From IMG/VR virus record IMGVR_UViG_3300044464_000110, positions 1 through 51,148 of that record: DNA of 51,148 bases. One strand, given 5' to 3'. A program made the position numbers and the translations under genes. The first letter of the stretch is position 1. The number at the start of each line of letters is the position of its first letter. This document shows positions 4,964 to 36,559 of the stretch, in pieces. Origin of the DNA: a virus. The notes under the pieces are model-generated. The model was given only the letters and a program-made list of their open reading frames with translations, did no database searches and had not been told where the DNA came from.

Positions 4964-5802
4964 AGCTCGGCTCGTTCTTCTCCGGCATCGGCGGCCTTGA
5001 GCTGGGCCTTGAAGCTGCGCTGGGGGCGGAGACTGTCTTCCAATGCGAGCGCGATCCATACGCGCGCCGCGTGCTGGCGAAGCACTGGCCCGGCGTGCCG
5101 CGCTTCAACGACGTGCGCGCGTTCGCGTCGCGGCGCTGGACTGACTCGCACCCGATCCCGCATGCCGACGTGTGGTGCGGCGGCTTCCCGTGTCAGGACA
5201 TCTCCGTTGCCGGAAAGCAGGTCGGGATTCATGGAGCGCGCAGCGGACTCTTCTTCACCTGGATGCGAGCCGTTCGCATCTTTCGACCGCGCTTCCTGGT
5301 GCTGGAGAACGTTCCAGCGATCCTTGCTGGAGACAGCTACGGTCCCGTTCTCGGGGCGCTGGCCGAGGCGGGGTACGATGCGGAATGGGATGTGCTATCC
5401 GCGGCGGACGTCGGCGCTCCGCATCTGCGCGAGCGGTGGTTCTGCATCGCCCGAGATGCTTCCGACACCGAGCGCGTCGAACTTCGAGTGCGCGGACGTG
5501 CCGCGGCTGCTGGAGCGGAGAGCGAAGCTGGCGGCGAAGCACGGGAACAACGGATTCGGGCTGACGCTGGCGCAGCACGTCAAGGCGTGGCCCACGCCGA
5601 CGGCGATGTCCGACACCGGTGGAGCGGCTCTCTGCAAATGGGGCGGAGCTCGCGCCAGGCAGTCGATGCGGGATCAGGGAGTTTCGGAAGCGGAGATGAA
5701 TGGCGCACTGAACCCAACGTGGGTCGAGTGGCTCATGGGGTTCCCGCTCGGGTGGACCGACTGCGCGGCCTCGGCAACGCCGTCGTCCCGCAGTGCGCCT
5801 AA
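4960..5802 (+). CDS. DNA (cytosine-5-)methyltransferase with frame conflict in C-terminal half
   Basis: C5-cytosine methyltransferases transfer a methyl group from S-adenosylmethionine to cytosine in DNA; phages use them to evade restriction. Motif I (FSGIGGLELGLE, residues 7-18), motif IV with the catalytic Cys (GGFPCQDIS, C78), motif VI (ENV, 116-118) and motif VIII (APHLRERWFCIA, 153-164) are intact. After residue 164 the frame continues through low-complexity sequence and ends at residue 280 with a motif-X-like GLGNAVVPQ, three residues before the stop. The +1 frame over the same bases (5453-5815) also encodes a family-like C-terminus with more typical codon use, so this gene may be frameshifted or recoded. 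ATGA overlap with the upstream gene. Confidence 0.85.
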   Translation: MKLGSFFSGIGGLELGLEAALGAETVFQCERDPYARRVLAKHWPGVPRFNDVRAFASRRWTDSHPIPHADVWCGGFPCQDISVAGKQVGIHGARSGLFFTWMRAVRIFRPRFLVLENVPAILAGDSYGPVLGALAEAGYDAEWDVLSAADVGAPHLRERWFCIARDASDTERVELRVRGRAAAAGAESEAGGEAREQRIRADAGAARQGVAHADGDVRHRWSGSLQMGRSSRQAVDAGSGSFGSGDEWRTEPNVGRVAHGVPARVDRLRGLGNAVVPQCA

Positions 5803-5815
5803 GTCATTGGACTGA
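5453..5815 (+). other. Alternative +1-frame C-terminus of the methyltransferase
   Basis: From codon GAG at 5453 the +1 frame reads EMLPTPSASNFE, then KAWPTPTA, then LNPTWVEWLMGFPLGWTD, and stops at 5815. These are typical C-terminal motifs of phage-type cytosine methyltransferases. By hand count its third codon positions are about 83 percent G or C over 113 codons, against about 62 percent for the zero frame over the same interval. A single-base shift near 5449-5453 (GCCCGAG) would give a 284-residue enzyme. It could be a mutation, an assembly error, recoding, or a separate product from ATG 5456. Confidence 0.55.
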
Positions 5816-5858
5816 GGCTGCGCGAACTCATCTCAGCGGCGCGCCAGGAGTCAGCAGC

Positions 5859-6089
5859 ATGAAGCCCAAGGCCGCGAAGTCCCGCTTCAGCTATGCCACG
5901 AAGGCCGAGGTGCTCGCGCAACTTCGCTTCGATGTGGCGCTTGCTGGCTCACAGAAGGCGTGTGCCAAGGCGCTCGGATGCTCTCCGCAGTACCTCAACG
6001 ACATCCTCAACGGTAAGCGCCAGCCGGCGCGGGAAGTGCTGAACCGCATCGGGTTCCGCAAGGTCACTCTGTACGAAAGGCTCCAATGA
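5859..6089 (+). CDS. HTH DNA-binding protein, XRE/Cro-like (76 aa)
   Basis: The start at ATG 5859 is chosen because CAGGAG lies 8 nt upstream. Residues of about 30-65 read GSQKACAKALGCSPQYLND then ILNGKRQP, a Cro/CI-type helix-turn-helix with the SPQYLNDILNGKR recognition region. With only 76 residues there is no dimerisation or peptidase domain, so it resembles a Cro-type regulator. It lies in the plus-strand chain after the methyltransferase and couples by ATGA to the next gene. A direct role in controlling the early operon is an inference. Confidence 0.8.
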   Translation: MKPKAAKSRFSYATKAEVLAQLRFDVALAGSQKACAKALGCSPQYLNDILNGKRQPAREVLNRIGFRKVTLYERLQ

Positions 6090-6283
6090 CGCCCAAGGCC
6101 AAGCGCGCGGGGAGGAAGGCGAGGACGTGGAAGGCGTGGGCCTGCCCGCTCTCAATGGGAGTGGCCGAGTGGCCCCTCGTGTTCAGCAGCAAGACGATGC
6201 TGAACTGCCGCGGCGCGCCGGGGCATCACGCCATCCGCGTGCTCGTCACCGAAGTGCTGCCCGCGCGCCGGAGGAAGCCATGA
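6086..6283 (+). CDS. Hypothetical basic protein (65 aa)
   Basis: ATGA overlaps with both neighbours. The N-terminus is strongly basic (TPKAKRAGRKARTWKAW); the rest may form a small beta-rich fold (VAEWPLVFSSKTMLNC, HHAIRVLVTEVL) with two cysteine or histidine positions. No family was recognised. Confidence 0.5.
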   Translation: MTPKAKRAGRKARTWKAWACPLSMGVAEWPLVFSSKTMLNCRGAPGHHAIRVLVTEVLPARRRKP

Positions 6284-20404: not shown

Positions 20405-20950
20405 GTGACGACACGCACGATTCCGTACTTCGAGGCGAGCGGCGCGCGGCTCGTGAACTCCACGCCGGCGGAGATTGCCGCGGCGGTGGCGCTGGGCTGG
20501 CTGCCAGGCTTCGAGTACTCGACGGGTCCGATCACGGACGCCGACCTGCTGCTGCCGGTGCTCTTCAGCGACAAGGAGCTGCGCGACAAGATCGCCGCTG
20601 CTGGCGGGCCGATCTACGACGCCGGCATGACGTCCGCGCAGCTCGCGATCGCGCTCCTGCGCGTGGCGGGCAAGACGGCCTACGACCGCGTGGAGGTCTC
20701 GTCCGTCACGGCCAACACCGGCACCACGGCCGGTGGCGACGCGCGCACGATCGCCGGCTTCGGCTTCAGCTTCGGCCGCGGCGGCACGCCGACCGTGACG
20801 TTCGGCGGCAACCCGGCGACGTCGATCGTCGTGGTGAGCGACACCAGCATCACGTGCGTCACGCCGGCTCACGGCGCGGGCGCGGTGTCGGTCATCGTGG
20901 GCAACGCCAACGGCTCGCATACCAAGGCCTCGGCCTTCACCTACTCCTGA
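20405..20950 (+). CDS. Head or neck accessory protein with C-terminal IPT/TIG Ig-like domain (181 aa)
   Basis: GTG 20405 is preferred for its GGAGGGTGAG site. A tiny 26-codon frame (20328-20408) overlaps its start and is not counted as a gene. The first 95 residues include LVNSTPAEIAAAVALGWLPG and a helical DKELRDKIAAAGG. Residues of about 98-181 form an Ig-like IPT/TIG domain: VTANTGTTAGGDARTIAG, then TPTVTFGGNPATSIVVVS and an ITCVTPAHGAGAVSVIV strand pair. Such domains decorate phage heads or necks and may bind carbohydrate. Confidence 0.7.
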   Translation: MTTRTIPYFEASGARLVNSTPAEIAAAVALGWLPGFEYSTGPITDADLLLPVLFSDKELRDKIAAAGGPIYDAGMTSAQLAIALLRVAGKTAYDRVEVSSVTANTGTTAGGDARTIAGFGFSFGRGGTPTVTFGGNPATSIVVVSDTSITCVTPAHGAGAVSVIVGNANGSHTKASAFTYS

Positions 20951-20962
20951 TCCGGGGGCGTC

Positions 20963-21490
20963 ATGGCGCACGTCGTCGAGACTGGCTCGGGCCTGAGCAA
21001 CGCGAACGCGTACCTCTCGGCGGCAGAGGCGGACCTGTACTGGGCCGACCACGGCGCGCCTGACGACTGGACGGCTGCGCTCACGGCCGAAAAGGAGGAG
21101 GCCATCCGGGCCGCCACCGAGGCGCTCGACGCACTCTACGGCCAGCGCTGGCGCGGCAGCCGCGTGCAGTCCGCCCAGGCACTCGACTGGCCCCGCACGA
21201 GCGTCGAGGACGACGATGGCTTCACGGTCGAGTCCACCAGTCTGCCGCTGCGCCTGAAGAGCTCCTGCGCCATCCTGTCCTTCGAGGCGCTGACCGGGGG
21301 TGGCGAGACCTCCTCCCTCGTGCCGGACATCACCGACACCGGAGCCCTGTCCGCCCTGACGGAGACGCTGGGCCCGCTCTCGCGCACGCAGCAGTGGGTT
21401 GGCGGCCGCAGCCAGGTGAAGTGGCGCCCCCTGGTCGATGGCCTGCTCCGGCCCCTGATCCTGGCGGGCGGGACGGTCATCCGGGCGTGA
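20963..21490 (+). CDS. Head-tail connector, DnaT-like (DnaT_2) protein
   Basis: A 175-residue protein begins AHVVETGSGLSNANAYLSAA, then AEADLYWADHGA, and has YGQRWRGSRVQSAQALDWPR. This is the signature of the neck proteins often annotated DnaT-like. It is an all-helical head-completion adaptor at the portal. Followed by a GTGA-coupled gene of the same neck module. Confidence 0.8.
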   Translation: MAHVVETGSGLSNANAYLSAAEADLYWADHGAPDDWTAALTAEKEEAIRAATEALDALYGQRWRGSRVQSAQALDWPRTSVEDDDGFTVESTSLPLRLKSSCAILSFEALTGGGETSSLVPDITDTGALSALTETLGPLSRTQQWVGGRSQVKWRPLVDGLLRPLILAGGTVIRA

Positions 21491-21849
21491 CCACCGAGCT
21501 CGACACCGCCTTCGCCGACATGGCCCTCGAGATGGTCGAGGCGTTCGGACCGACGGCCATCTTCACCGACGTGCCTGGCACCTACGACCGCGTGACGGGC
21601 AGCGCGCCGGCGGGCGCGGTCCTCGGGCCCTTCAAGGTCTCGCCGCCGTTCCCCTACGAGCAGCGGTACATCGACGGCGACGTCATCCAGCGGCGCGACC
21701 TGCGCGTCATCCTGCCGGCGAAGGGCGCCTTCGTGCCGCTGCTGGGCATGACCGTCTCGCTCTCCGGCGTCTCGCACATCGTGGTGACCGTGCGGCCCTA
21801 CCAGTCGGGCGACGACATCGCGGCCTACGAACTGCAGGTGCGCGCATGA
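21487..21849 (+). CDS. Head closure / head-tail adaptor protein (120 aa)
   Basis: GTGA overlap with the connector gene. Short helical start (FADMALEMVEAFG) followed by a beta barrel: ATYDRVTG-like strand pair, GAVLGPFKVSPPFP, RRDLRVILPAKGAFVPLLG and SHIVVTVRPYQSGDDIAAYE. The position, size and strand pattern fit head-closure (gp16-like) proteins. Confidence 0.7.
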   Translation: MTTELDTAFADMALEMVEAFGPTAIFTDVPGTYDRVTGSAPAGAVLGPFKVSPPFPYEQRYIDGDVIQRRDLRVILPAKGAFVPLLGMTVSLSGVSHIVVTVRPYQSGDDIAAYELQVRA

Positions 21850-22268
21850 CCGGCACCAGCAACATCGAGGAGTTCAATCGCGAGGTGCAGGCCTGGGCCG
21901 AAACGATGCCGGCCAATGTGGTCGTCACGGCGCAGAAGAAGCTGGCCTTCGACGCCTTCGCCGGCATCGACGACAAGATGCCCGTCGACACGGGGCACGC
22001 GCGCTTCAACACGCAGGTCTCCGTCAACGACTACGCGCGCGGCGAGATCCCAGGCGTCGACCCGACCGGCAGCGTGGCGCGCGGGCGCGCCGAGGCCGCG
22101 CTGGCCGACATCCCGCCCTTCGCGCTGGTCGTGATCCACAACTCCGTGCCGTACATCGAGCGGCTTGAGGGCGGCAGCAGCACGCAGGCCCCCTCCCCCG
22201 GCGGCATATTCGACCTCACGGCCCACGAACTGCTCGCGACCTTCGACGTCGAAGGCCTGCCCCCGTGA
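21846..22268 (+). CDS. HK97 gp10-like tail completion protein (140 aa)
   Basis: ATGA-coupled. It has a helical N-terminus (NIEEFNREVQAWAETMP), MPVDTGHARFNTQVSV and a C-terminal VVIHNSVPYIERLEGGSS. The DTG...SVxYxxxLE pattern is the signature of HK97 gp10-like neck and tail proteins. It precedes the expected tail terminator, which here is inside the next giant gene (4-nt overlap). Confidence 0.8.
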   Translation: MTGTSNIEEFNREVQAWAETMPANVVVTAQKKLAFDAFAGIDDKMPVDTGHARFNTQVSVNDYARGEIPGVDPTGSVARGRAEAALADIPPFALVVIHNSVPYIERLEGGSSTQAPSPGGIFDLTAHELLATFDVEGLPP

Positions 22269-25200
22269 CGACCTACACCGCCATCGCCACGCGCGCCTTC
22301 ACAGTCAGCCCGGTGCCAGATCACCCGCACGCGATCCTGAAGGTCTTCCTGCCGAACGGCACGCCGAACCCCGAGGGGCACCCGGCGTGCATCTACAACA
22401 TCCTCGAGAACGTCATCGACTGCGACATGATCGACGTGATCGACGAGAGCCGGCCGGAGCTCGCGGCGATCCTCGATGCCCACAGCGCCCTCATCCTCGT
22501 GGCGAGCCCGGTCGCGCGTGGCGACAACACGGGCAACACGGAAGCCAGCGTCGCCTACGACCCGGACAACAACCTGTTCGGGCCCAGCTACCGCGGCAAC
22601 GGATGCAACTGGGCGCCGACGCTGGGCGTGCCCACGGGCCTGCCGACGGGCACGCATCCGATGGCCGACCCGCTCTGGTTCATGACCATCAAGTCCTACC
22701 CGCAGGCGGTGCAGTACGTCGTTACGCAGCTCGTGGCCGAGTTCAATCTCGACCCGACGCGGCTGTGGGGCGGCGGCAGTTCGGCGGGCGGCCTCGGCGT
22801 GCTCGCGACGATGTGGGGCCCCAACCGCGCGCCGCAAATGTTCCCCGGCGGCAGCGGGCAACTCGCGGTCGACACGCGCGCCGCACTGCGTTGCGCAGCG
22901 ATCGAGCGCACGCAGACGTTCGGGCCCGTCTTCCAGCAGACCGGCGCCGGATGGTTCTTCCCGCAGGTGCCGGGCACGGGCACCGGCTACAAGGTCAACG
23001 CCCCGGGCGGCCTGCCCATCGGCACCACCGTGATCCCGGTCGACACCGGCACCGGCACGATCATCAAGGGCGACTTCCTCGTGCTCTCGGGCATCGGCGA
23101 CCGGCCACGCGTCTCGGTGGGACTGGCTGGCGGGCAGATCACGATCGCTTCGCCGCTCACCGCGGCGCTGGCCGACAACGCGAACATCACGATCCTGAAG
23201 ACGTGGGACTGGCCCAGCTTCCCGATCTCGATCGGCGACCAGACGAACCTCTTCGAGATGGCGCCGCTCGTCATGGCCGAGGCGCCCGCAGAGTACGCGG
23301 ACAACGTGGCGAACAAGAAGTGCTGGATGCGCTACCTCGCGCCCGCGACCGCTGGCGCGCCCTACGACAAAACGCACCTGACCCACGACGAGCCGAACGT
23401 CCACAGCGTGTGGTCTGGCCGCGCGATGAAGGAGCTCATGGGCACGGGCCTGCGGCTCGTGGTCAACGGCGCCGACGCGGCCGATGGCGTGCACGAGGAC
23501 GCTGTGATCCTGACCGGCGACGCCGACGTCTACGCCGACATGATGGCCACGATCTACGAGTGGCTCGAATACGAGTACCTCGGCGACGGCGGCGGCGGTG
23601 GCAGCGAGCCCGAGGGGGTCGCCTGGTACACGCGCATCGACCGGGCGATCCGCCAGCACTTCGGGACTGAGGTGGAGGACGCCCTCGTGATCCCGGCGGT
23701 CTACGACAACGAGAGCGAGGCCGTGGCCCTGGCGTCCGCGCGCTGGGCCCGCGTGCGGGTCGACCACGCGGGCACGAATCAGACGCACTTCGGGTCCATC
23801 CCCAAGTACCGGCGCGCCGGAGACCTCGTCGTCGAATGCCGCTGCCGGGTAGTCCAGGGCGACGGCTCGGCCGTGCAGCTCGCCGACGCGGTCGTGGCGG
23901 TCTTCCGCGGCGCCACCGTGGGCGACGACGTGAACGTCATCTTCCGGCAGCCGCGCGTCGACGGGCCGCACAGGGACGGCGCCTGGTGGGTTGCGACCGT
24001 GCGCGTCCCTTGGTACAGCGACGAGTCCGTCGAGCACAGCGAGGCCGGCCCGGACGATGCGGCCGCCACGTTCGGCGACATCACCGAGGCGCTGCGGGCG
24101 CGCTTCCAGAGCTACGTTGAGGCGCCCCTAGGGCTGACGACGCAGTACGACGACCAGGCCTTTGCGCCTGAGCTGGGCCAGGCCTGGGCGCGCTTCAGTG
24201 TGCTCCTGGGGAGCCAGATCCACCCCGAGGGCAGCGAGCGGCAGTGGTATCGGCAGATCGGCATGGCGGTGGCCCAGGTCTTCGTGCCGGCTGGGATCGG
24301 CCATGGCCAGGCCCTCACCATCGTCGACACGATCGACGAGGCCTTCCGGTCGACCAGCCAGCAGGGCGTGGTGCTGGGCGAGCCGGCGCTGCGCACGGTT
24401 GGTCGCGACGGCGCGTGGTGGCAGCTCAACGTGACGCTGCCGTTCCAGGCGCCCATCACCGTCGCCGACGACGTGGTCGACAGCATCTACCCCACGGGCT
24501 CGCTCTACGAGCCGCCCACGGGCATGGTGCTGTACGGCCTCTCGCACTTTCCTTCCGACGCCCTGTCCTACGTGGACGCGCTGGCCAACGGCGTCCCCGG
24601 AGGTGGTGGCGGCGGCGGCCCGCCGTCGGACTACCTGCCGCTGGACGTCAGCGTCGCGAAGGTCATACCGGCCGCGCTGACGGCGTGGACCGACACCGAC
24701 ACGCTCGTGACCTTCGCGGTGCCGCTGCCCGACCTGCTCGTGGCCGACCTTGCTGGGCGCCCGGAGCTGTCGCTCTCCGGGGCCTCGATCTGGCAGGCCC
24801 GCACGCTGCAGAAGTGGCCCAGCGGCTTCGCGAAGTGGGCGCTCTTCAAGGCGCGGGTCAACCCGGCCACCACCACGACCCTCACGATCAGCGGGTCCGG
24901 CGTTGGCAAGTCGGCCGGGTCCGACCTCCTGAGCCTGACGGGCGGGGTCTACACGCTCGCCACGGGCGCCGTGACGGCGACGGTGAAGGTCCCGTCCTTC
25001 AATCTCTTCGACAGCGTCAAGATCGGCGCGCTCACCATCATGGCGTCCGGCACGGGCGGCCCAGGCCTCCTCGGCACGATGGCAGACGGGGTGACGGGCC
25101 TCGTCATCCGCTCCACGGCGGTCGGCCGCGTCGAGGACAACGGCCCCGCCAGCGCGTGCCTGCGGATCGACGGCGAGCTGGCGGCCAGCACCGCCCCGAC

Positions 25201-28018
25201 CGTCACGGTGGCGAAGTTCGCATGCCGCTTCGTTGCGGCCGCGCAGTCGCCGGACATCGCCGTCACGTTCACGGTGCAGAACGACACCTGGCACCTGAAC
25301 GCCTCGCCCTCGACCGACGACAACAAGCATCTGCAGCTCGGCTGGGTCGAGATCGGGTTCCGCATCAACGCGGGCGCCAGCCGCACGCTCGTGTGTTGCA
25401 ACCCTGGCTCCGAGACGGCGCAGAGCATCGGCGGCGTCGGGCAGCCCAAGGACGTCTACTGCTACCAGAAGTACAGCACGGCAGCGACCACCGACGTCTC
25501 GGGCACGGGGCCGGCGTACAAGCCGCACATCACGAAGGACGGAGCCGGCGTCTTCACGCAACAGGGATGGGAGAAGCGCGACGACAACGTCCTCACCGTG
25601 GACCTGCCGGCCGGGAGCTGGCCCCAGCACGGGTACCTGAACCTGTCCGGCGCGTCCGCGGGCTGCACCATCGGCATCCGGCACATGCCCTTCTTCTGGC
25701 CCGCATCGCTGCGCGGGAATGACAACGGGTCGGTGGGCGTCGGCCTCTTCCCCCGCTACAACCCGGACAAGTACGTCTTCCCGTGGCGGATGCACGAGAG
25801 CCGGGAGTGCGTCTTCTCGTTCCACGCCGGACCGATCGGCGCGCTGCCGTCGACCAGCCTTCCGTCGCAGGTCGTCAAGCGCCTCGACTACCCGCTGTAC
25901 GGGCGTCTCGCCGACTACAGCAAGTACGACGCGGCGGGCGTCTTCCCCTATCGGCTGGCGACCATAGCGGAACAGCAGGAGCTCTACACCGCGCTGGGGA
26001 TCGCGCACACGCCGGCCGTCAGCAACGAGAGCATGCAGGTGCTGCGCTTCCGCGCCTCGAGCACGACGGGCGGCGACAACAACCACGCGGCCGGCGAGGT
26101 CCGGCTGGTCGACGCGTTCCTGCGCTACGGCAAGGGCGGGCAGCTCTTCCGCGGCCTCGACATGGCCGTCTACCTCGCCGAGTGGGCCATCCCGCGCTCT
26201 TCGGACTTCGCGGACGCGGACGACCCTGGCGCCAGCAACGACGGGACGCTTGCCCACACCACCGGCACCTTCGACGACGGGAACAGCGACCAGCACCTCT
26301 ACGACGAGAACATGCTTGACGCCTACTTCCTGACGGGCGACGAGCGCCTGCACGCGTCGCTGTTCGACGAGGCCGACGTGCTCGCCGCGGTGACTTTCTC
26401 GGTCAACGGCAACGAGCGCGGGAACTACCAGTGGTTCCGCGCGGCCTCGCTCGTCGCCGAGTTCCTGGCGGATCAGAGCCCGACGGAAGCGGCGACGCTC
26501 AAGGCCTCGCTCAAGGCGCGGATCACGGCGCACTCTGCCACCACAGTGGACGTCGACGCGGTTTCCTCCGGGTCGGGGTGGGACAACGCCACAGCCGGCG
26601 CGGGCGCGCGCGGGTACTACGCCAGCTCGCTGCAGAACCTCGGCGAGCAACTGCCTGGCGAGTTCTTCGTGGCGCGTGGCTTCGTGAGCGCACGCCTCGG
26701 TCCCGTCGCCTTCAAGATCACGCAGCGGTACCTCACCGTGGCCGACAGCGACGGCGTCAAGGCCCAGGGCCGCAAGAAGGACTTGGCCAAGTGGACGAAG
26801 AACGAGCTGCTGGCGACGGCCACCGGCCCGGACGTGCCCGCCGGCATGCTCGGGCAGAAGTGCCTGATCTACAGCTACCAGATCCACCTGCAGACGCCGG
26901 GCGCCGACGACGCCAGTCACCCGGGCGGATTCCAGCACCCCGACTTCCACTCAGTGCTCACGGCTGCGGCTGAGGGGTGGCGCGAGACAGCCGACGCGGC
27001 CTACATCGCGATGGGCGTCGCCCACATCGCGGCCTTCGTCGCGGACGGGAACGTCGCCGTGCTTGACTCGGGCCTCGAGGTGCAGGACTTCGTGCAGGCC
27101 TACCACGACTTCGTGACGCCGCCCGAGGAGAGCGAACCGCCCGATCACCTGCCGGGGATCGTGGCCCACGTCTACAACCTCGGGATCAATGATCACCCCG
27201 ACCCGACCACGGAGCAACTGGTCGCGGTGCTCGACGAGCTTGACGGCCTCGGCTACGTGCCGCGGTTCGGGATCACGCTGCAAGACCAGACCGGCGACCC
27301 GCAGATCCCACTCGACGACGTGATCGCGACCACGAGCACCTACGACGATCAGATCGACACGCTCGCCCAGGCGCTCGTGGAGTTCGACAAGCCTGTCTTC
27401 CTCGCGATCGGGTGGGAGTGCAACGGCCACTACACCACCGCGTACTACCCTGCCGCGTTCCGCAAGATCGTGGACATGGTCCGCGCCGCGGGCGCGACCA
27501 AGGTCGCCTTCGTGTGGGGCATCGAGGCCACGCCCGCCAGCAACTACGACGACTGGTATCCGGGCGACGCCTACGTCGACTGGTTCGCCGTCGACGTCTT
27601 CCGCAAGGACAAGTACCTCACCGCCGGGCACCCGGTGAACACGCACTTGGTGACCTTCCTGGCCTACGCGGTGGCGCACAGCCGTCGCGTGATGCTGCTC
27701 GAGGCCGAGGCCGTGGGTGAAGACATGCCGGGCGGCACGATCTTGCCCGATCCCGCGGACGGCACGGCGCAGTACGCCTACTGGTTCCACGCGTTCTTCG
27801 CGCTGCTCGCGGCGAACCCGATCATCGGGTGCTTCGAGTACACGAACCAGGACCTGACGGGCAGCGGGTACGACGTGCCCGGCATGGGCTGGAAGAACGG
27901 CAGACTCGACGTCAACAGCGACGTCTTCTTGCCCTGGGTCGCAGAGATCAGCCAAGAGAAATACATCGACTCGTCGCGGCGCGACCTGCTGCTGCACTGG
28001 TCAGAAAACCACGGTTAG
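22265..28018 (+). CDS. Giant fusion: esterase + two tail-terminator-like modules + RGL-like lyase + GH26-like barrel (1917 aa)
   Basis: Module 1, residues 1-440: alpha/beta hydrolase with WGGGSSAGGLG (nucleophile S173) and candidate His H410; a beta insert lies at about 243-318. Gly linker 440-452. Modules 2 and 3, about 452-592 and 617-733: tandem related domains resembling DUF4128 tail terminators (WAR(V/F)xV, YR-x-G, RDGAWW then a closing strand). Gly linker about 778-790. Module 4, about 790-1615: rhamnogalacturonan-lyase-like beta domain (WPSGFAKWALFK) plus an alpha/alpha toroid (QHLYDENMLDAYFLTGDERL). Module 5, about 1625-1905: GH26-like TIM barrel with IGWECNG (E1718, acid/base) and VMLLEAEA (E1813, likely nucleophile). 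It occupies the terminator slot between gp10-like and tail-tube genes, and no other terminator gene is seen. Probably a virion-bound polysaccharide-degrading protein. Confidence 0.85.
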   Translation: MTTYTAIATRAFTVSPVPDHPHAILKVFLPNGTPNPEGHPACIYNILENVIDCDMIDVIDESRPELAAILDAHSALILVASPVARGDNTGNTEASVAYDPDNNLFGPSYRGNGCNWAPTLGVPTGLPTGTHPMADPLWFMTIKSYPQAVQYVVTQLVAEFNLDPTRLWGGGSSAGGLGVLATMWGPNRAPQMFPGGSGQLAVDTRAALRCAAIERTQTFGPVFQQTGAGWFFPQVPGTGTGYKVNAPGGLPIGTTVIPVDTGTGTIIKGDFLVLSGIGDRPRVSVGLAGGQITIASPLTAALADNANITILKTWDWPSFPISIGDQTNLFEMAPLVMAEAPAEYADNVANKKCWMRYLAPATAGAPYDKTHLTHDEPNVHSVWSGRAMKELMGTGLRLVVNGADAADGVHEDAVILTGDADVYADMMATIYEWLEYEYLGDGGGGGSEPEGVAWYTRIDRAIRQHFGTEVEDALVIPAVYDNESEAVALASARWARVRVDHAGTNQTHFGSIPKYRRAGDLVVECRCRVVQGDGSAVQLADAVVAVFRGATVGDDVNVIFRQPRVDGPHRDGAWWVATVRVPWYSDESVEHSEAGPDDAAATFGDITEALRARFQSYVEAPLGLTTQYDDQAFAPELGQAWARFSVLLGSQIHPEGSERQWYRQIGMAVAQVFVPAGIGHGQALTIVDTIDEAFRSTSQQGVVLGEPALRTVGRDGAWWQLNVTLPFQAPITVADDVVDSIYPTGSLYEPPTGMVLYGLSHFPSDALSYVDALANGVPGGGGGGGPPSDYLPLDVSVAKVIPAALTAWTDTDTLVTFAVPLPDLLVADLAGRPELSLSGASIWQARTLQKWPSGFAKWALFKARVNPATTTTLTISGSGVGKSAGSDLLSLTGGVYTLATGAVTATVKVPSFNLFDSVKIGALTIMASGTGGPGLLGTMADGVTGLVIRSTAVGRVEDNGPASACLRIDGELAASTAPTVTVAKFACRFVAAAQSPDIAVTFTVQNDTWHLNASPSTDDNKHLQLGWVEIGFRINAGASRTLVCCNPGSETAQSIGGVGQPKDVYCYQKYSTAATTDVSGTGPAYKPHITKDGAGVFTQQGWEKRDDNVLTVDLPAGSWPQHGYLNLSGASAGCTIGIRHMPFFWPASLRGNDNGSVGVGLFPRYNPDKYVFPWRMHESRECVFSFHAGPIGALPSTSLPSQVVKRLDYPLYGRLADYSKYDAAGVFPYRLATIAEQQELYTALGIAHTPAVSNESMQVLRFRASSTTGGDNNHAAGEVRLVDAFLRYGKGGQLFRGLDMAVYLAEWAIPRSSDFADADDPGASNDGTLAHTTGTFDDGNSDQHLYDENMLDAYFLTGDERLHASLFDEADVLAAVTFSVNGNERGNYQWFRAASLVAEFLADQSPTEAATLKASLKARITAHSATTVDVDAVSSGSGWDNATAGAGARGYYASSLQNLGEQLPGEFFVARGFVSARLGPVAFKITQRYLTVADSDGVKAQGRKKDLAKWTKNELLATATGPDVPAGMLGQKCLIYSYQIHLQTPGADDASHPGGFQHPDFHSVLTAAAEGWRETADAAYIAMGVAHIAAFVADGNVAVLDSGLEVQDFVQAYHDFVTPPEESEPPDHLPGIVAHVYNLGINDHPDPTTEQLVAVLDELDGLGYVPRFGITLQDQTGDPQIPLDDVIATTSTYDDQIDTLAQALVEFDKPVFLAIGWECNGHYTTAYYPAAFRKIVDMVRAAGATKVAFVWGIEATPASNYDDWYPGDAYVDWFAVDVFRKDKYLTAGHPVNTHLVTFLAYAVAHSRRVMLLEAEAVGEDMPGGTILPDPADGTAQYAYWFHAFFALLAANPIIGCFEYTNQDLTGSGYDVPGMGWKNGRLDVNSDVFLPWVAEISQEKYIDSSRRDLLLHWSENHG

Positions 28019-28030
28019 GAGGGCACTCAC

Positions 28031-29224
28031 ATGGCCAGCGGCGCACTACTCAAGGTCAGTTACAAGTCCGAGAAAGACGCGGCCGGCGGCACGTATGGCG
28101 TCGACCCTGGCGCGGGCAGCGTCCAACTGCGCGAGGTGCGCTACAGCCGCTACGGCGTCGACATGACGCCCGCCTTCGCCGAGACGGACGAGATCCGCAG
28201 CGACCGGCAGACGGTCGACGCGATCATGACCGACTTCGGCGCGGCCGGGCAGATCGAGGCGCCCTTCGCCTACCTGATCCACGACGACTTCATCCGCGCG
28301 GCGATGCTCGTCACCAGCGACTTCCAGGCCGGAGTTCTGCTCGCTGCGCTGACCAATCTGACCTTCGCGGCCGCCGGGAACACGATCACGCGGGCGTCGG
28401 GCGACTTCGTGGCCGCCGGCATCGTGGCCGGTGGCTTCATCCGCATCACGGGCGCCGCGCAGGCTGGCAACAACTCGGTCTGGAAGATGACCAACGTCAC
28501 GACGACGGTCATCACGGTCTCGGGCGGAACGCTGGTGAACGAGTCGGCCGGCGCCTCGGTGGTCATCAAGCAGAGCCAGGACATCAAGCCCGGCACGACG
28601 ATCCACAGCATGATGTTCGAAGCGCAGTTCACCGACCTGTCGAACGAATACGCCGTTGCGACGGGCATGATGGTGTCGCGCTGGGCGCTGTCCGTGCCGA
28701 CGAACGGGCTGATCAAACAGACCTTCGACACACTGGGCAAGACGGTGGCGTCCGCCAGCGCGACAACGGGCACCGGCGCCATCATCGCGGCGCCCACGAG
28801 CGTGCAGTTCTCGTCGGTCAACAACATCGACAAGGCCTGCGTCGCGGGCGCGGTGGTGTCCCTGACGGCCGTGCAGTTCAGCCTCGACAACCGGCTGCGC
28901 CGACACCTGGCGATCGGGACGCTGGGGCCCATCGACCTCGGCATGGGTTCGATCGGGCTGGAGGGCAGCTTCGAGGCCTACTATGCCAGCAAGGCCGACT
29001 GGGACAAGGCGAAGGCCAAGACCGACAGCTCGCTTTGGCTCTCGTTCGTGGACGCCGCGAACGACCGCTACGTCATCGAGTTTCCCGCGATCGTGTACAC
29101 GAGCGCGACGCGCACGGCGGGCGGCAAGGACAGCGACGCAGTCGCAACCATCGGCTTCCGCGCGAAGCGCAGCACCGCGTCCTATGACCTGACGATGATG
29201 CGCTTTTCCAAGATTGCGCCGTGA
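28031..29224 (+). CDS. Major tail tube protein (397 aa)
   Basis: ATG 28031 follows AGGAGG by 7 nt. Typical tail-tube features are LLKVSYKSEKDAAGG at the N-terminus, RSDRQTVDAIMTDFGAAGQI and C-terminal strands IEFPAIVYTSATRTAGGKDS. Residues of about 105-190 are an inserted beta module (GNTITRASGDFVAAGIVAGG then IRITGAAQAGNNSVWKMT) common in tail tube proteins, probably exposed on the tail surface. Confidence 0.85.
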   Translation: MASGALLKVSYKSEKDAAGGTYGVDPGAGSVQLREVRYSRYGVDMTPAFAETDEIRSDRQTVDAIMTDFGAAGQIEAPFAYLIHDDFIRAAMLVTSDFQAGVLLAALTNLTFAAAGNTITRASGDFVAAGIVAGGFIRITGAAQAGNNSVWKMTNVTTTVITVSGGTLVNESAGASVVIKQSQDIKPGTTIHSMMFEAQFTDLSNEYAVATGMMVSRWALSVPTNGLIKQTFDTLGKTVASASATTGTGAIIAAPTSVQFSSVNNIDKACVAGAVVSLTAVQFSLDNRLRRHLAIGTLGPIDLGMGSIGLEGSFEAYYASKADWDKAKAKTDSSLWLSFVDAANDRYVIEFPAIVYTSATRTAGGKDSDAVATIGFRAKRSTASYDLTMMRFSKIAP

Positions 29225-29985: not shown

Positions 29986-31287
29986 GTGCCGACTCTCGAG
30001 CTGGCGATTGACGCGCGGAGGGCGCGGTACGGCGCCGACGACTTCGCGTCTGCGACGGACCGCGTCAAGGCCTCCGCCACCGGCGCCGCTGGCGCCACCG
30101 AAAAGTTCACCGTCGCGATCGAGGGCCACTCGCGGGCGCAGCACGCGCTGCAGCGCGCCCTCGACGTGTCGGGCAACCTGGCCAAGGGATTCCTGACCTC
30201 ACTGGCCATCGCGCCCGTGCTGGCCCTTGGCTCGGCGCTCTCCACGGCCGCGCTGAAGATGCTCGGCTTCGGCGAGAACACGAAAGCGGCCACGGAGGCG
30301 GGCTCGGCCTTTGCCAAGCAGGCCGATGCGATCACGGAGAGCCTCAAGAGGCTCAATACCGAGGCCGCCCTTGCGGGGAAGTATCCCGGCCTGTTCTCCA
30401 GCGCGCCGGGCGCCGTTGGGTCGAGCCGGCAGGCCCAGATTCAGGACCTGCTGAGGTCCATGACGTCCGCCGGCGGCGCGTACACCACCCCCGAGCAGCG
30501 CGAGGCGATGGGCGCGCTCGGGATCCACGTGCCGAACGTCGGGGATTCGCGCACCCCGGACATGGCGGCGGCCCTCGCCGCACTCGGCCGGGCCGCGCAG
30601 GAGCAGCAGGCCTTCTCCGGTTTCAACGCTGCGCTCAACGCGCCCGGTGGAGCCACGGCGCTCCCCGGATTCGCGGGCACGGGCGCGCCGGGGTTTGCCG
30701 GTTCTCCATCGCGCGCGGCCGCCCTCGCGCGCGCCAGCGCCTACGCCACCAACATATCGCCTGTCTACGGTGGCGGCTACAGCCCCGGCGGCATGTCGCA
30801 GTTCACCGGCTACGGCGACACGATCCCCGGCCTCGTCGGCCTGCAGGGCGCCAACGATCCGCTCGCCGTCTTCCTCGGGCAGAATAGAGCGCCTGGATAC
30901 GTGCCCGGGGCCGGCGGCTTCAACTCGATCACCGGCCTGCAGGGCCCGGACGCCTCCGAGTTCCTGAAGCAGCAAGAGGCGACGCAGCGCAGCGCCGAGA
31001 ACATCGGCGACGCCTTCGCCAACTCCAGCCTGCAGGCGCTGGAGGCAGCACAGAGCCTCGGTGACGGGCTCGCGATGATCTTCCGCAGCGTCCTGCAGCA
31101 GATCCTGGCAGAGACCGCCGGCAAGGCCCTGGCGAGCGCTGGCACGTCGGCTGCCGTCTCCGTGCTCGGCGGCAGCACGGGCGTCCCAGCCGGCGGCGGC
31201 TCCCATGTCGAGGCGTTCTACGGCAGCTTCGGGCGCAGCTCGCGGCAGCTCGCCGACGACCAGCGCCGCGCGATTCGGAGGAGGTAA
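29986..31287 (+). CDS. Tape measure protein, short (433 aa)
   Basis: GTG 29986, two bases after the chaperone stop. The N-terminal 100 residues are helical with a hydrophobic segment (FLTSLAIAPVLALGSAL). The middle is Gly/Ala/Pro-rich (FAGTGAPGFAGSPSRAAALA) and the C-terminus is helical (NIGDAFANSSLQALEAAQSL; MIFRSVLQQILAETAGKAL). Location and composition fit the tape measure. At about 0.15 nm per residue, 433 residues would give a tail of roughly 65 nm, shorter than most siphoviruses. No peptidase or lysozyme domain is visible. Confidence 0.75.
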   Translation: MPTLELAIDARRARYGADDFASATDRVKASATGAAGATEKFTVAIEGHSRAQHALQRALDVSGNLAKGFLTSLAIAPVLALGSALSTAALKMLGFGENTKAATEAGSAFAKQADAITESLKRLNTEAALAGKYPGLFSSAPGAVGSSRQAQIQDLLRSMTSAGGAYTTPEQREAMGALGIHVPNVGDSRTPDMAAALAALGRAAQEQQAFSGFNAALNAPGGATALPGFAGTGAPGFAGSPSRAAALARASAYATNISPVYGGGYSPGGMSQFTGYGDTIPGLVGLQGANDPLAVFLGQNRAPGYVPGAGGFNSITGLQGPDASEFLKQQEATQRSAENIGDAFANSSLQALEAAQSLGDGLAMIFRSVLQQILAETAGKALASAGTSAAVSVLGGSTGVPAGGGSHVEAFYGSFGRSSRQLADDQRRAIRRR

Positions 31288-31289
31288 TC

Positions 31290-32258
31290 GTGGCCAGTGT
31301 GGAGCTGCAGTTCCCGCCCGCGATCAGCAACCACAGCGCCGGCGGGCCAGGCTACCGCACCAGCATCGTGGAGCTGGACAGCGGCGCCGAGGAACGCGTC
31401 GGTTTCTGGTCGGCGCCGCGGTACCACTACAACCTGCAGTACGGCATCCGGAACTTCGCCGACCTGCGCACCGTGCTGAACTTCTACGTGGCGCGGCGCG
31501 GGCCGGCGGTGGCCTTCCGCTACAAGGACTGGCTCGACTACAGCAGCTCGGCCACTGGCAAGCCCAGCAGCAGCACGCCGGTCAACACGGACCAGCAGAT
31601 CGGCGTGGGCAACGCCAGTCAGACGGCCTTCCAGCTCGTGAAGAACTACGCCGACGCCGGCGCCACGGTGGTGCGCACCGTCACGAAGCCGGTCACGGGG
31701 TCCGTCACAATCTCATTCGACGGCGTCGATCAGCCGTCCGGCTGGACGGTCGACACGACCACCGGCATCGTCACGTTCTCGGTCGCGCCCGGGAACGGTG
31801 TCGTCGTCAAGGCCGGCTACCTCTTCGACGTGCCGGTGCGCTTCGGCGGCGAGATCGACGCAGGGCTTCTGCTGGCGCTCGACACGTTCGACGCCGGGTC
31901 GCTGCCGTCCATCCCGCTCGTAGAGGTCATCGGCGAGACGCCGAGTGCGGAGGACAAGCCGCCGGGCGGCTCAGCGGCCGTGTCGCTCGCGGCCAGCGCC
32001 AGCTTCACGCGCGCGACCGGCGAGCTGCTGGTGGTGACGCCAACGACGGGCGGCTTCAACTACACGCAGAGCGAGCCCGAGACGGGGCTGGGCCTCGGCG
32101 GCCCTTACCATCGCATCGTCAACGCCAGCGGCTCCTTCTCCTTCACGCTCAAGGGCCAGCTAGGTGGCACCATCGTCTCGGTCGCCGCTGGCGCGACCTA
32201 CGAGATGTGGATCAAGGACGGCGGCGCCGGCACCAAGCAGTGGGCGGCCTTCCCATGA
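31290..32258 (+). CDS. Distal tail protein, DUF2460 / GTA gp12-like (322 aa)
   Basis: GTG 31290 follows GAGGAGG. The N-terminal signature FPPAISNHSAGGPGYRTSI, FYVARRGPAVAFRYKDWLDY and a central INSFDG-type beta region (GSVTISFDGVDQPSGWTVDT) are those of DUF2460 (TIGR02217). The usual family length is about 200 residues, so the C-terminal about 110 residues (from IPLVEVIGE) are an added beta-rich domain, possibly carbohydrate-binding. Confidence 0.85.
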   Translation: MASVELQFPPAISNHSAGGPGYRTSIVELDSGAEERVGFWSAPRYHYNLQYGIRNFADLRTVLNFYVARRGPAVAFRYKDWLDYSSSATGKPSSSTPVNTDQQIGVGNASQTAFQLVKNYADAGATVVRTVTKPVTGSVTISFDGVDQPSGWTVDTTTGIVTFSVAPGNGVVVKAGYLFDVPVRFGGEIDAGLLLALDTFDAGSLPSIPLVEVIGETPSAEDKPPGGSAAVSLAASASFTRATGELLVVTPTTGGFNYTQSEPETGLGLGGPYHRIVNASGSFSFTLKGQLGGTIVSVAAGATYEMWIKDGGAGTKQWAAFP

Positions 32259-32593
32259 TCGACGAGGCTACGTACTACGGGGGCTCTCTCAAGAAGACGC
32301 TGGCCGCCGAGTACCACATTAGCCCGCGCAGGGAGCGCTTCGGGCACTTCGACGCGACGGGCTCCAACTTCGCCGTGCGCCTGCCTGACGCGACGCAGTT
32401 GCGCACGGGGCTCGACACGATGCTGGTGGCGGCCTTCACCAACACGCTCACGGTCAAGGACAAGACCGGCGCCACGCTGACGACCATTGGGGTCGATCGA
32501 GTGAAGCGCTTCCACCTGCTCGACAACTCCACAGCCGCCGGCGTCTGGCACTTCAGCGCGGGCTTGGCCGTGAGCCTCGGGACAGCCGTCTAG
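32255..32593 (+). CDS. Tail accessory protein (112 aa)
   Basis: ATGA-coupled between DUF2460 and DUF2163 genes. Mostly beta (SNFAVRLPDATQLRTGLDTM; NTLTVKDKTGATLTTIGVDR). Small beta proteins with LPDATQLRTG are familiar in GTA-like tail modules. It may be a distal-tail or fibre-attachment subunit. Confidence 0.65.
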   Translation: MIDEATYYGGSLKKTLAAEYHISPRRERFGHFDATGSNFAVRLPDATQLRTGLDTMLVAAFTNTLTVKDKTGATLTTIGVDRVKRFHLLDNSTAAGVWHFSAGLAVSLGTAV

Positions 32594-33492
32594 TGCCAGC
32601 CACCATCGCCCCGCCGTGCGCCGCCCTGCTGGAGCAGAAGACCCTGCGCTTCGCGTATCTGTGGGCGATCCTGCGCGCGGATGGCGTGCTGCTCTTCTTC
32701 ACGGACCACAACGCCCCGCTCGTGTTCGGCGGGTTCACGTTCTACCCGGGCGGCTTCGACGCCTCGGCGCGGCGCGCGGACGGCGGGCTGGAGACGCACA
32801 GCCTGTCGCTCGAGGGCATGATCCAGTCGGGCGACATCGCGGTCGCCGACCTGCGCTCAGGGCGTTACGACGAGGCGCAGATCTTCGAGTACCTCGTCGA
32901 CTGGCGCTACCCGTGGGCTGGCGCGATTCGCACCAGGACGTGGTGGATCGACTCGGTGTCCTTCGACGGCCAGCGCTGGTCGGCCGAGACGTCGGGGCTC
33001 GTGCGCTTCCCGCAGGTGCCGACCGGCAAGCTGCTGGCGCGCACCTGCTACTGGAAGCTCTACGAGAACTTCGGCGTGTCCGGCAAGGCCGGCTGCAAGC
33101 TGGACCCGGCCGCGTTCACCTTCACGCCGATCGCGGTGGCTGTGGTCACCGACCCGCGACGCATCTTCACCTGCGACACCGGCATCACGGGCTCGCTGGG
33201 CGCCGACTACTTCGCCGATGGCCGCGTGACCTGGCTGACCGGGCCCAACGCGGGCGTTGTCTCCGAAGTCGCCACGCACAACGACCACGCGGGCGGGCTC
33301 TACACCGTCGAGCTGTACGTGGAGACGGACTTCGACATCGCGGTCGGGAACACGTTCACGATCACGGCCGGCTGCGACAAGCTTTTCTCGACCTGCAAGG
33401 CGAAGTTCAACAACGTGGTGAACTTCGGCGGCGCGCCCAAGAAGCCACGCGCGGGCGACCTACTCAAGATCGCGAAGACGCCACAGTCGTGA
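32593..33492 (+). CDS. DUF2163 / GTA gp13-like tail tip protein (299 aa)
   Basis: GTG 32593 overlaps the preceding TAG. It contains FTDHNAPLVFGGFTFYPGGF, the ESLSLEGM-type region (ETHSLSLEGMIQSGDIAV) and a C-terminal domain with spaced cysteines (AGCDKLFSTCKAKFNNVVNF). This is the TIGR02218 signature. It forms part of the tail tip together with the next NlpC/P60 gene. Confidence 0.85.
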   Translation: MPATIAPPCAALLEQKTLRFAYLWAILRADGVLLFFTDHNAPLVFGGFTFYPGGFDASARRADGGLETHSLSLEGMIQSGDIAVADLRSGRYDEAQIFEYLVDWRYPWAGAIRTRTWWIDSVSFDGQRWSAETSGLVRFPQVPTGKLLARTCYWKLYENFGVSGKAGCKLDPAAFTFTPIAVAVVTDPRRIFTCDTGITGSLGADYFADGRVTWLTGPNAGVVSEVATHNDHAGGLYTVELYVETDFDIAVGNTFTITAGCDKLFSTCKAKFNNVVNFGGAPKKPRAGDLLKIAKTPQS

Positions 33493-33920
33493 CGGAGACG
33501 ATGCATACCCGCCAGGACGTGGTCGACCTGACCCGGAGCTGGATCGGCACGCCGTGGGTCCATCAGGGGCGCCGCGCCGGCGTCGGCCTCGACTGTGTCG
33601 GCCTCATCACCAGCGCGCTGGCCGTGCTGGGCGAGCCGACGAGCGACTACACGTGGTACCGGCGCGCGCCCGAGGGCGACAACCTGCTGCGCGAGATCCG
33701 CGCGCGCTTCGTCGAGCTGCCGGCGCCTGAGCCCGGGTCGCTGCTCGTGTTCTTCATCCGCAGCCGGCGCGTGGCCCAGCACATCGGGCTCCTGACCTAC
33801 GACGGCACCATCGTGCACGCCAACGCCGCCGCCGGGCGCGTGTGCGAGCAGCCCTACGACGCCGAGTGGCAGCGCCGCACGCTCGCGGCCTTCGACCTCA
33901 CGCGGAGGGCCACCGCGTGA
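33489..33920 (+). CDS. NlpC/P60 family peptidase, tail-associated (143 aa)
   Basis: Papain-like peptidases of this family cleave peptidoglycan stem peptides; GTA gp14 homologues act at the tail tip during DNA entry. GTPWVHQGRR precedes GLDCVGLI (catalytic Cys C36) and AQHIGLL (catalytic His H98); a third polar residue could be H110. GTGA-type overlaps on both sides (start GTG 33489; ATG 33501 is an alternative). Confidence 0.85.
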   Translation: MTETMHTRQDVVDLTRSWIGTPWVHQGRRAGVGLDCVGLITSALAVLGEPTSDYTWYRRAPEGDNLLREIRARFVELPAPEPGSLLVFFIRSRRVAQHIGLLTYDGTIVHANAAAGRVCEQPYDAEWQRRTLAAFDLTRRATA

Positions 33921-36559
33921 ACTACGTCGGCGATACCTTCCGGTTCGGCGGGACGCTCTTCAGCTACATCCCTGGCGTCGGCGGCCCGTTCGAGAAGCTG
34001 TTCGACGCCGCCGGGCAATACTTCGATCCGCAGTCGCGCATCTCGGCGCGCCCGATCAAGGAGTTCGGCGTCAACTCAGGCGAGCCGTTCTCGCCGCTGG
34101 ACCTCCCTTTCGGCCCGTCGGCTCCCGTCGACGGCGTCGTCGCGTACATCGGGCCGATCACGAAGAAGAAGGTCAGCACCACGAGCGGTAAGGGCGGCGG
34201 CTCGCAGACCGTCGACAGCTACCAGTACTTCGCGGACGTGGCGATCGACTTCTGCGAGGCGCCCGACGGCGGCATCGTCGAGTACACGTCGCTGTGGGCT
34301 GACGGGCAGTTCGTCTACGGCCAGAACCCGGACCAGAACGAGACGAGCGACGAGCTGGCGCTCGAGGTCGTGACCCTGAAGGGCAAGACCTTCGTCGACA
34401 TCAGCAGCCCGCTCGGCGGCCCGAACCTGAAGAAGTTCAAGCCCTCGGGCGACTCGGTCGTCATGACGGGCTGGGCGACGGGCGGCAACAACATCACGGC
34501 CGACCCCGTGTCGTCCAAGAAGAAGAAGAGCGACGGCACCAGCATCCTGCGCCTGCTGGTCGCCCCCGCCGATGCCGCGGGCGTCGCCGACGAGGCCGCC
34601 GGCTCGACCGTGACGCTCTTCCAGGCGAACCAGAAGAGCAACCTGAACGACCTGGCCGACGTCGAGCTGTACCTCGGGACCGACAGCCAGATCGCCTCGC
34701 CGGCCATCGAGGCCAACGAGGGCACCGGCAACGTCGAGGCCGCGCGCGGCCGGTGCCGCGTGGTCATCAACAAGCTCTACCTCAACAAGTGGGGCAACCG
34801 CGTCCCGATGTCATGGCGCGCCGTCGTCCAGGCCCACGCCTCGCTGACGCTCGCTCAGGCCATCTCGGGGCTGCTGCTGCGCGGCGGGCTGACGGCCGGG
34901 CAGTTCGACGTCACCGGGCTCACGGGCGACGTGCAGGGCTTCGTCCTGCGTGCAGGCGACGCCCCGGCCAGCATGGTCGTGGCCCTCATGATGGCCTACG
35001 ACCTCATGGCGCGCGAGGTGTCCGGGCAGCTCGTGTTCTTCCATCGCGAAGATGCCCCGCACGTCACCGTCGGGGCCGAGGACCTCGGGGCCCACGCGGC
35101 CGACGAGAGCCCGCGGCGCGAGATCGACCTCGAGCGCTCCCCTGCGCTGGACCTGCCCAGCGACGTCCGCGTGTCCTTCCTCGACCCGACCAAGGACCTG
35201 CAGCAGTCCGACGCGCGCCAGCAGATCGCCAACGCCACGACCCAGGCCAGCGTCTCGGTCAACCTTCCGATCGTGCTGGACCCCGAGGACGCGCGAGCCA
35301 TCGCCAAGCGGCTGGCCTGGATGCCGCGAGCCACACGGCACGAAGCCACGTTCAACTGCCCGCCGTCGCGACAGGATATCGTCGAGGGCGACGTTCTCGA
35401 CGTCACGGCCCACGGCGAGGCCTGGCACCTCGTGGCCCAGCGGGTCGAGGCAGGCAAGAGCGGCATCGTGGCCGTGCGGGCCCAGTCCGACAACACGGGC
35501 GTGGTCTCCGTCGCGCCCATCGCCGGCAGCGACGACGACAGCGACTCGCTGCAGGTGCCGCCACCGATTGCGCTGGACGTCATGGACATCCCGGCCATCA
35601 CGCCCGAGCACGTGCTCCTGCCGGGCCGGTACTTCGCGCTGGCGCTGTACGACACCGAGCAGCCGTGGCCCGGCGGCGTGGTCTACGAGAGCACAGACGA
35701 TGGCGACAGCTTCCTGCCGATCGCGCTGGCGCAGACCGAAGCCATCGCGGGCTACGTCTCGGCCGTAGCGGTGTCGGGCTCCAGCGGTGGCGGTCTGGTG
35801 TGGGACCTGCGCTCCAGCTTCACCGTCACGATCTGGAACGGCGAGCTGGAGTCGATCTCCGAGGCCGACGCGCTTGCGCTGCACAACCTCGCGGCGCTGC
35901 GCACGCCGGGCGGCGAGTGGGAGCTGATCATCTTCCGCAACGCCACGCTCATCGGCACCACGAACCTCGGGCACAAGGAATATCAGGTTGACACGATCCT
36001 GCGCGGCGTGCGCGGGACCGAGTACCTCATCACGACGATCACCGCCGGGTCGGCCTTCGTCCTGCTGGAGCCATCGCAGTTCTCGCAGGGGTTCATCGCG
36101 GACCTCGGCACCGAGCGGCTGTACAAGGCCGTCCCAAACGGCGGCGCCTCCTCCGACTTCAGCGACACCGAGGAGCTGACGGTGGCGCTGCACACGCTCA
36201 CGCCGTGGGCACCGACCCTCATCAGTATCACCCCGGACGTCATCTTCCCACTCCTCGACGGATCGCGTGACGAGACTTTCGTCTGGCATCGCCGGACGCG
36301 CGCGTTCACGGACCCACTCGAGCCGGACCAAGTGACCCTCGCCGAAGAGGTCAACGAGTTCTACGTCGACATCTACGTGTCCGGCGGGTTCGTGCGCACC
36401 GAAATGGTCCCCGGCGGCGACGACGGCGAGACGACGTGGACCTATACGGCCGCGGACCAGATCACCGACGGGGCGAACCCCACGGATATCGGGACCGTCA
36501 TCATCTACCAGCGCAGCACCTCGGTCGGGCGGGGCTCACCGCTCGGCCCGCTCGGCTGA
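33917..36559 (+). CDS. Tail baseplate hub protein, GTA gp15-like (880 aa)
   Basis: GTGA-coupled to the peptidase gene. Features are the N-terminal NYVGDTFRFGGTLFSYIPG, GPSAPVDGVVAYIGPITKKK, a long mixed middle (VVALMMAYDLMAREVSGQLV; LPIVLDPEDARAIAKRLAWM) and C-terminal FLLEPSQFSQGFIADLGTE-like and fibronectin-like segments. This corresponds to the large hub or tail tip protein that follows NlpC/P60 in GTA-like modules. Its size, below the usual about 1300 residues of GTA gp15, indicates absence of the TIM-barrel part. Confidence 0.75.
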   Translation: MNYVGDTFRFGGTLFSYIPGVGGPFEKLFDAAGQYFDPQSRISARPIKEFGVNSGEPFSPLDLPFGPSAPVDGVVAYIGPITKKKVSTTSGKGGGSQTVDSYQYFADVAIDFCEAPDGGIVEYTSLWADGQFVYGQNPDQNETSDELALEVVTLKGKTFVDISSPLGGPNLKKFKPSGDSVVMTGWATGGNNITADPVSSKKKKSDGTSILRLLVAPADAAGVADEAAGSTVTLFQANQKSNLNDLADVELYLGTDSQIASPAIEANEGTGNVEAARGRCRVVINKLYLNKWGNRVPMSWRAVVQAHASLTLAQAISGLLLRGGLTAGQFDVTGLTGDVQGFVLRAGDAPASMVVALMMAYDLMAREVSGQLVFFHREDAPHVTVGAEDLGAHAADESPRREIDLERSPALDLPSDVRVSFLDPTKDLQQSDARQQIANATTQASVSVNLPIVLDPEDARAIAKRLAWMPRATRHEATFNCPPSRQDIVEGDVLDVTAHGEAWHLVAQRVEAGKSGIVAVRAQSDNTGVVSVAPIAGSDDDSDSLQVPPPIALDVMDIPAITPEHVLLPGRYFALALYDTEQPWPGGVVYESTDDGDSFLPIALAQTEAIAGYVSAVAVSGSSGGGLVWDLRSSFTVTIWNGELESISEADALALHNLAALRTPGGEWELIIFRNATLIGTTNLGHKEYQVDTILRGVRGTEYLITTITAGSAFVLLEPSQFSQGFIADLGTERLYKAVPNGGASSDFSDTEELTVALHTLTPWAPTLISITPDVIFPLLDGSRDETFVWHRRTRAFTDPLEPDQVTLAEEVNEFYVDIYVSGGFVRTEMVPGGDDGETTWTYTAADQITDGANPTDIGTVIIYQRSTSVGRGSPLGPLG

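Follow-up and report, generated by a model that had tools for sequence, protein, structure and literature searches.

A duplicated tail terminator as a candidate anchor for enzymes at the neck of a phage

The search for virion enzymes directed against host-surface sugars usually turns to the tail tip or to head fibres. IMG/VR record IMGVR_UViG_3300044464_000110 (51,148 nt, 70% GC; the whole record was analysed and is called the window here) raises the question whether the neck may be a further site: the slot of the tail terminator is filled by a single frame of 1917 codons. The original prediction, made from the same DNA, took this gene for a duplicated tail terminator fused to a multi-enzyme polysaccharide degrader. 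The frame is exactly as described, and its neighbours are indeed a Neck1/gp10-like gene (phrog_169) before and a tail tube gene (PF18906/phrog_290) after it. On balance, and with modest confidence, we favour the view that the gene encodes a tail terminator duplicated within one chain, which would form a pseudo-hexamer and hold enzymes in place where head and tail join.

The two modules T1 and T2 (Table 1) had been claimed to be related to each other and to be of the DUF4128 type. They align with 28% identity over ~132 residues (BLASTP expect value (E) 2e-12), and their local alignment reaches a score of 120, whereas 1000 shuffles gave a mean of 30.5 (standard deviation 5.3) and a maximum of 59. 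Each module matches the terminator family: the profile Phage_tail_terminator_5 (PF13554) hits two stretches of the gene with 63.6 bits against a cut-off of 27 (E 2.6e-17), and phrog_179, 'tail terminator', likewise hits two stretches of the 1917-aa protein (1.2e-40). In an AlphaFold2 model of residues 446-742, made with nine relatives, both modules are built alike of helix, long hairpin, helix and sheet in that order, with a mean predicted local distance difference test (pLDDT) score of 79. Foldseek matched the T1-T2 model to the stopper-terminator structure 9l0e of phage T1 (TMt 0.84, 2.3 Å) and to FCWL1 9jlf (template modelling score (TM) 0.84), the two lying at 2.3-2.4 Å, as well as to 2l25, a nuclear magnetic resonance structure from the same family; weaker matches were lambda gpU, T5 p142, Mu, RcGTA and R4C. 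Searched in six frames, the complete record yielded no separate terminator gene of the phrog_179 family; T1 and T2 were the only matches. By family profile and predicted fold, both modules are tail terminators; they are the only terminator of the record and stand in the terminator slot.

With a profile built from the terminator modules (an initial seven-row terminator alignment was too divergent as a scan query), the doubled terminator was found in three further lineages. L004 (MW202657, Manatee Spring) has in the same slot a 546-aa 'hypothetical protein' made of an N-terminal domain, a Gly/Ala/Ser-rich stretch and T1-T2. In L014, an IMG/VR contig, a protein of 994 aa begins with a region of ~570 residues, again followed by a Gly/Ala/Ser-rich stretch and fused T1-T2. 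In the third lineage (L011, L015 and L017; L023 is L015 reversed), an N-terminal domain, Gly/Ala-rich repeats and T1 form one gene, which is overlapped by a separate T2 gene. Six other relatives (L001, L008, L010, L013, Pan1 and R26L) have a single plain module, and no T1-T2 relatives were found in the genome contigs scanned or in plasmids. The N-terminal domains of L004 and L011 have no detectable similarity to each other. Since T1 and T2 are fused in three lineages, their stoichiometry would be 1:1. Two candidates were rejected: Dinoroseobacter phage R26L as a two-module case, the longer match being upstream gene DNA in another frame, and the N-terminal region of L014 as a homologue of the central region of the 1917-aa protein, to which it has no similarity.

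As to the enzymes, the presence of a GH26 glycoside hydrolase in the T1-T2 chain is solid on homology grounds. The region matches AlXyn26A (7xjr; 6.6e-17) and the beta-1,3-xylanase XYL4 (2ddx; 7.4e-12), PF02156 scores 20.3 bits with the whole protein and 23.5 bits with the isolated region (cut-off 20.2), and both catalytic glutamates are kept (Table 1). The N-terminal region is a probable alpha/beta-hydrolase, its esterase class being only putative. A GGGSSAGG nucleophile motif with a later DGVHED is typical of alpha/beta-hydrolases; a BD-FAE match around the nucleophile motif stays below the cut-off (E 0.24), and no profile of an alpha/beta-hydrolase esterase matches residues 1-440 above the cut-off. 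The central region is perhaps carbohydrate-active, as a candidate only: profile and follow-up searches gave no significant family match for it, and a PcRGLX-like rhamnogalacturonan lyase was rejected, since neither PcRGLX_1st nor PcRGLX_2nd matched above the cut-off (12.2 bits against 23.5) and further searches were negative. Scans with the hydrolase-like and the central region found relatives of neither in viral contigs; the former gave none in plasmids, and the latter none in genome contigs or phages and one chance-level match in plasmids. Thus the claimed multi-enzyme polysaccharide degrader stands for GH26, by homology alone, and falls short for the sub-threshold hydrolase and for the ~810 central residues, which lack a significant match; a multi-enzyme nature of the chain is nevertheless likely.

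Some observations at the side of this may be mentioned. The hydrolase-like domain contains an insert of ~80 residues that is similar to the insertion domain in coat proteins of the P22 type, those of related phages among them, with matches to the coat of Microcystis phage Me-ZS1 (E 6e-7) and to that of L023 (E 8e-5). In L011 (3543-4847) and L023 (5074-6411), a sulfatase-like gene lies in the interval between Hc1 and Neck1, a carbohydrate-active neighbour in the neck cluster; the L011 gene matches PF00884 (1.5e-35) and the protein starts alike in L023. Directly before the cargo-T1 gene of L011, positions 5408-6106 match weakly the podophage GP4 fibre protein gp80 (PF23140 4.7e-7), and the product is perhaps a neck-attached fibre.

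How did the two modules come about? In a tree of 16 modules, a single branch (support 78/90, 81% of bootstraps) separates the five T1 from T2 and the single modules. T2 has a mean identity of 33.7% to stand-alone terminators and T1 one of 24.0%; stand-alone terminators share 37.1% among themselves. Every T1 has kept the length of the tube-facing hairpin of solved terminators, at 26-27 residues, along with an R..G pair that does not vary, whereas the C-terminal WWQLN motif is mostly lost in T1. The simplest reading of these sequences would be one duplication, after which T2 retained the job and T1 turned carrier, with fusion or splitting later.

Solved tail terminators are hexamers (PMC10276861, PMC7296036, PMC11784142), and the question is how chains with two modules could build such a ring. 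A model of the tail tube encoded directly downstream, made with seven relatives (pLDDT 71, predicted TM (pTM) 0.72), matches those of SH-Ab15497 (TM 0.81), P74-26 (0.66) and T5, all with two domains, and the tube is therefore predicted to be of the two-domain, trimer-ring type of T5 and P74-26; it also has an additional inserted stretch at about residues 103-185. The tubes of P74-26 and T5 are trimers that form C3/pseudo-C6 rings (PMC10034513); in T5, the terminator ring seated on such a tube likewise has C3/pseudo-C6 symmetry (PMC11784142). On a tube whose rings are predicted to be trimers of two-domain proteins, three chains of T1-T2 could be placed in register, as a pseudo-hexamer. The original prediction had sought support for this in the trimeric habit of depolymerases; that support is lost, since the recognised domains, GH26 and the probable alpha/beta-hydrolase, are not beta-helical trimers.

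In the model that we propose, three chains would close one ring of six modules (T1-T2-T1-T2-T1-T2) on the last ring of the tube, which would provide two alternating kinds of seat. T2 would keep the ordinary terminator role and T1 would occupy the alternate seats, with its N-terminal cargo outside the ring; the 1917-aa protein has C-terminal cargo as well. Glycine or Gly/Ala/Ser-rich linkers would leave the cargo hanging free, so that each virion would carry three copies of each enzyme as a collar at the neck. At this position, the enzymes could loosen the polysaccharide of host surface or matrix that surrounds the particle, binding and penetration being left to the RcGTA-like tail tip. We see it as an even call whether this describes a recurring virion architecture: on a trimeric tube, the duplicated terminator would make up the neck ring, as a C3 pseudo-hexamer or as a hetero-hexamer with T1 and T2 in alternation, and its diverged copy would present precisely three copies of enzymes or binding domains that can be exchanged.

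Several points speak against this model. Support for the T1 branch falls short of what is usually required, and two of the T1 modules have long branches that could attract each other. The same tube family occurs in phages with single-module terminators, and a trimeric tube thus need not entail a duplicated terminator. Two of the three cargo regions are without a firm family. The tandem terminator folds of phiCD508 gp53 are stacked as two layers of a hexamer, a solved precedent of a hexameric ring that is 'effectively double-layered' by an extra domain of similar fold (PMC13324602). By analogy, six chains could form two stacked rings, T2 seated on the tube and T1 facing the stopper, or in the opposite order, with six copies of each cargo domain. 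The phiCD508 chain 9gb5_H ranks first for the tandem in the Foldseek search, although with a TM of only 0.32, a value to be read with the pTM of 0.50 of the T1-T2 model, in which the placing of the modules relative to each other is unreliable; and the greater divergence of T1 is expected if its contacts differ from those of T2. On the other hand, T1 would have no need of its full-length tube-facing hairpin and of the R..G pair if it lay in a ring remote from the tube, and an alternation of modules is simply explained by the trimeric tube that is predicted. We therefore regard the double-layered hexamer as a serious but rather unlikely alternative; the sequence evidence leans towards the single alternating ring without deciding the matter.

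It is also conceivable, and in our view quite improbable, that the enzymes are absent from mature virions and act free, because the chain is cut or because the fusion serves assembly or lysis only. The flexible Gly5 and Gly7 linkers would be cleavable, but free enzymes need no in-frame link to a structural protein, and terminator-borne cargo in four lineages with dissimilar N-termini is the pattern expected of a display anchor. Finally, that neighbouring genes were fused by an assembly or sequencing error is most improbable, although the gene comes from a single metagenomic record: a check for such a fusion gave a GC content at the third codon position of 0.91-0.95 across all 150-codon blocks, so that the frame appears coding throughout without a hint of frameshift or non-coding joint, glycine linkers stand at the joints, and independent cases exist in L004 and L014 (fused T1-T2) and in L011, L015 and L017 (cargo-T1).

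Table 1. Coordinates of the terminator-enzyme gene, its parts and the neighbouring neck and tube genes in the window
Feature	Position	Strand	Basis or remark
Whole gene: hydrolase-like - Gly5 - T1 - T2 - Gly7 - central region - GH26	22265..28018	+	1917 aa, GTG start
Probable alpha/beta-hydrolase, residues 1-440	22265..23584	+	motifs GGGSSAGG 169-176, DGVHED ~407-412
Insert within hydrolase-like domain, residues ~234-314	22964..23206	+	likeness to P22-like coat insertion domain
Gly5 linker, residues 442-446	23588..23602	+	sequence
T1, first (diverged) tail-terminator module, residues ~452-595	23618..24049	+	phrog_179 2.3e-22; model, fold
T2, second (conventional-looking) tail-terminator module, residues ~600-735	24062..24469	+	phrog_179 1.3e-23; model, fold
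Gly7 linker, residues 779-785	24599..24619	+	sequence
Central region, residues ~788-1600 (~810 residues), perhaps carbohydrate-active	24626..27064	+	PcRGLX_2nd E 0.087, below cut-off
GH26 domain, residues ~1640-1905	27182..27979	+	7xjr, 2ddx, PF02156; E1718 acid/base, E1819 nucleophile
Head-tail adaptor Ad1	20963..21490	+	phrog_477 4.5e-37
Head closure / stopper Hc1	21487..21849	+	phrog_161 4.5e-13
Neck1 / tail-completion protein (gp10-like)	21846..22268	+	phrog_169 2.9e-26
Tail tube	28031..29224	+	PF18906 2.1e-22, phrog_290; predicted two-domain, trimeric pseudo-hexamer ring type

The genes of this part of the window run in the order portal, head morphogenesis, scaffold, P22-like coat, TIG protein, Ad1, Hc1, Neck1, the 1917-codon gene, tube and tail assembly chaperone, followed by the RcGTA-like tail tip. 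The GTG start of the 1917-codon gene overlaps the stop of the upstream neck gene (GTGA). The 433-aa product at 29986-31287, without a match in the searches, is by its position probably a short tape measure. In the interval between coat and Ad1, a TIG/Ig-like domain protein (20405-20950; PF01833 4.2e-12) is possibly a head decoration protein, and the RcGTA-like tail tip (31299-36559; DUF2460, phrog_778 and phrog_4271 with Rcc01698_C) occurs here in a phage with a P22-like coat.

A literature search, with most subscription papers outside its reach, found no description of enzymes fused to a tail terminator. As judged from sequence, we are dealing with a known family in a new, recurring architecture, and the doubled cap with its differing cargo suggests a previously unrecognised site on the virion for the display of enzymes or binding domains. 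If this is true, a place of display goes unseen in annotation that looks for a terminator of ~140 aa and leaves genes of this kind as 'hypothetical protein', the label used in MW202657, and a structural ring protein can bear very large cargo at its two ends. The series from a single terminator via separate T1 and T2 to fused T1-T2 would then be a testable case of a homomeric ring that becomes an alternating one.

With the terminators of siphophages (lambda gpU, SPP1 gp17, phage T1, R4C and RcGTA Rcc01690; PF13554/phrog_179), T1 and T2 share family profile, fold and slot, but those proteins are single-module hexamers of ~130-160 aa, whereas here two modules lie in a chain of 1917 aa with large domains at both ends. 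Likewise, residues 1650-1901 align with AlXyn26A (7xjr) and XYL4 (2ddx) over most of the domain, catalytic glutamates included, but these GH26 xylanases are not known as virion proteins. That duplication and fusion of a ring module turns a hexamer into a C3 pseudo-hexamer is known from the tubes of T5 (pb6) and P74-26 (PMC11784142, PMC10034513), and the tube encoded here is predicted to be alike; there, the duplication is in the tube and not in the terminator, which in T5 consists of six single-module chains. Two terminator-like folds per chain, seen here by model and fold search, are also present in phiCD508 gp53 (PMC11948020, PMC13324602), but this is the double-layered hexamer of a contractile phage, with 272 residues in the solved chain and no enzymatic cargo. 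The neck passage structure of lactococcal phages (PMC6669499) carries carbohydrate-binding, pectin-lyase-like or esterase-like domains at the neck that are exchanged between phages; in that case a BppU-like N-terminal domain anchors a separate collar and is not a terminator, whereas the N-terminus here is hydrolase-like. The neck passage structure is the nearest functional analogue, with another anchor (PMC6669499), and phiCD508 gp53 the nearest structural precedent for the duplication.

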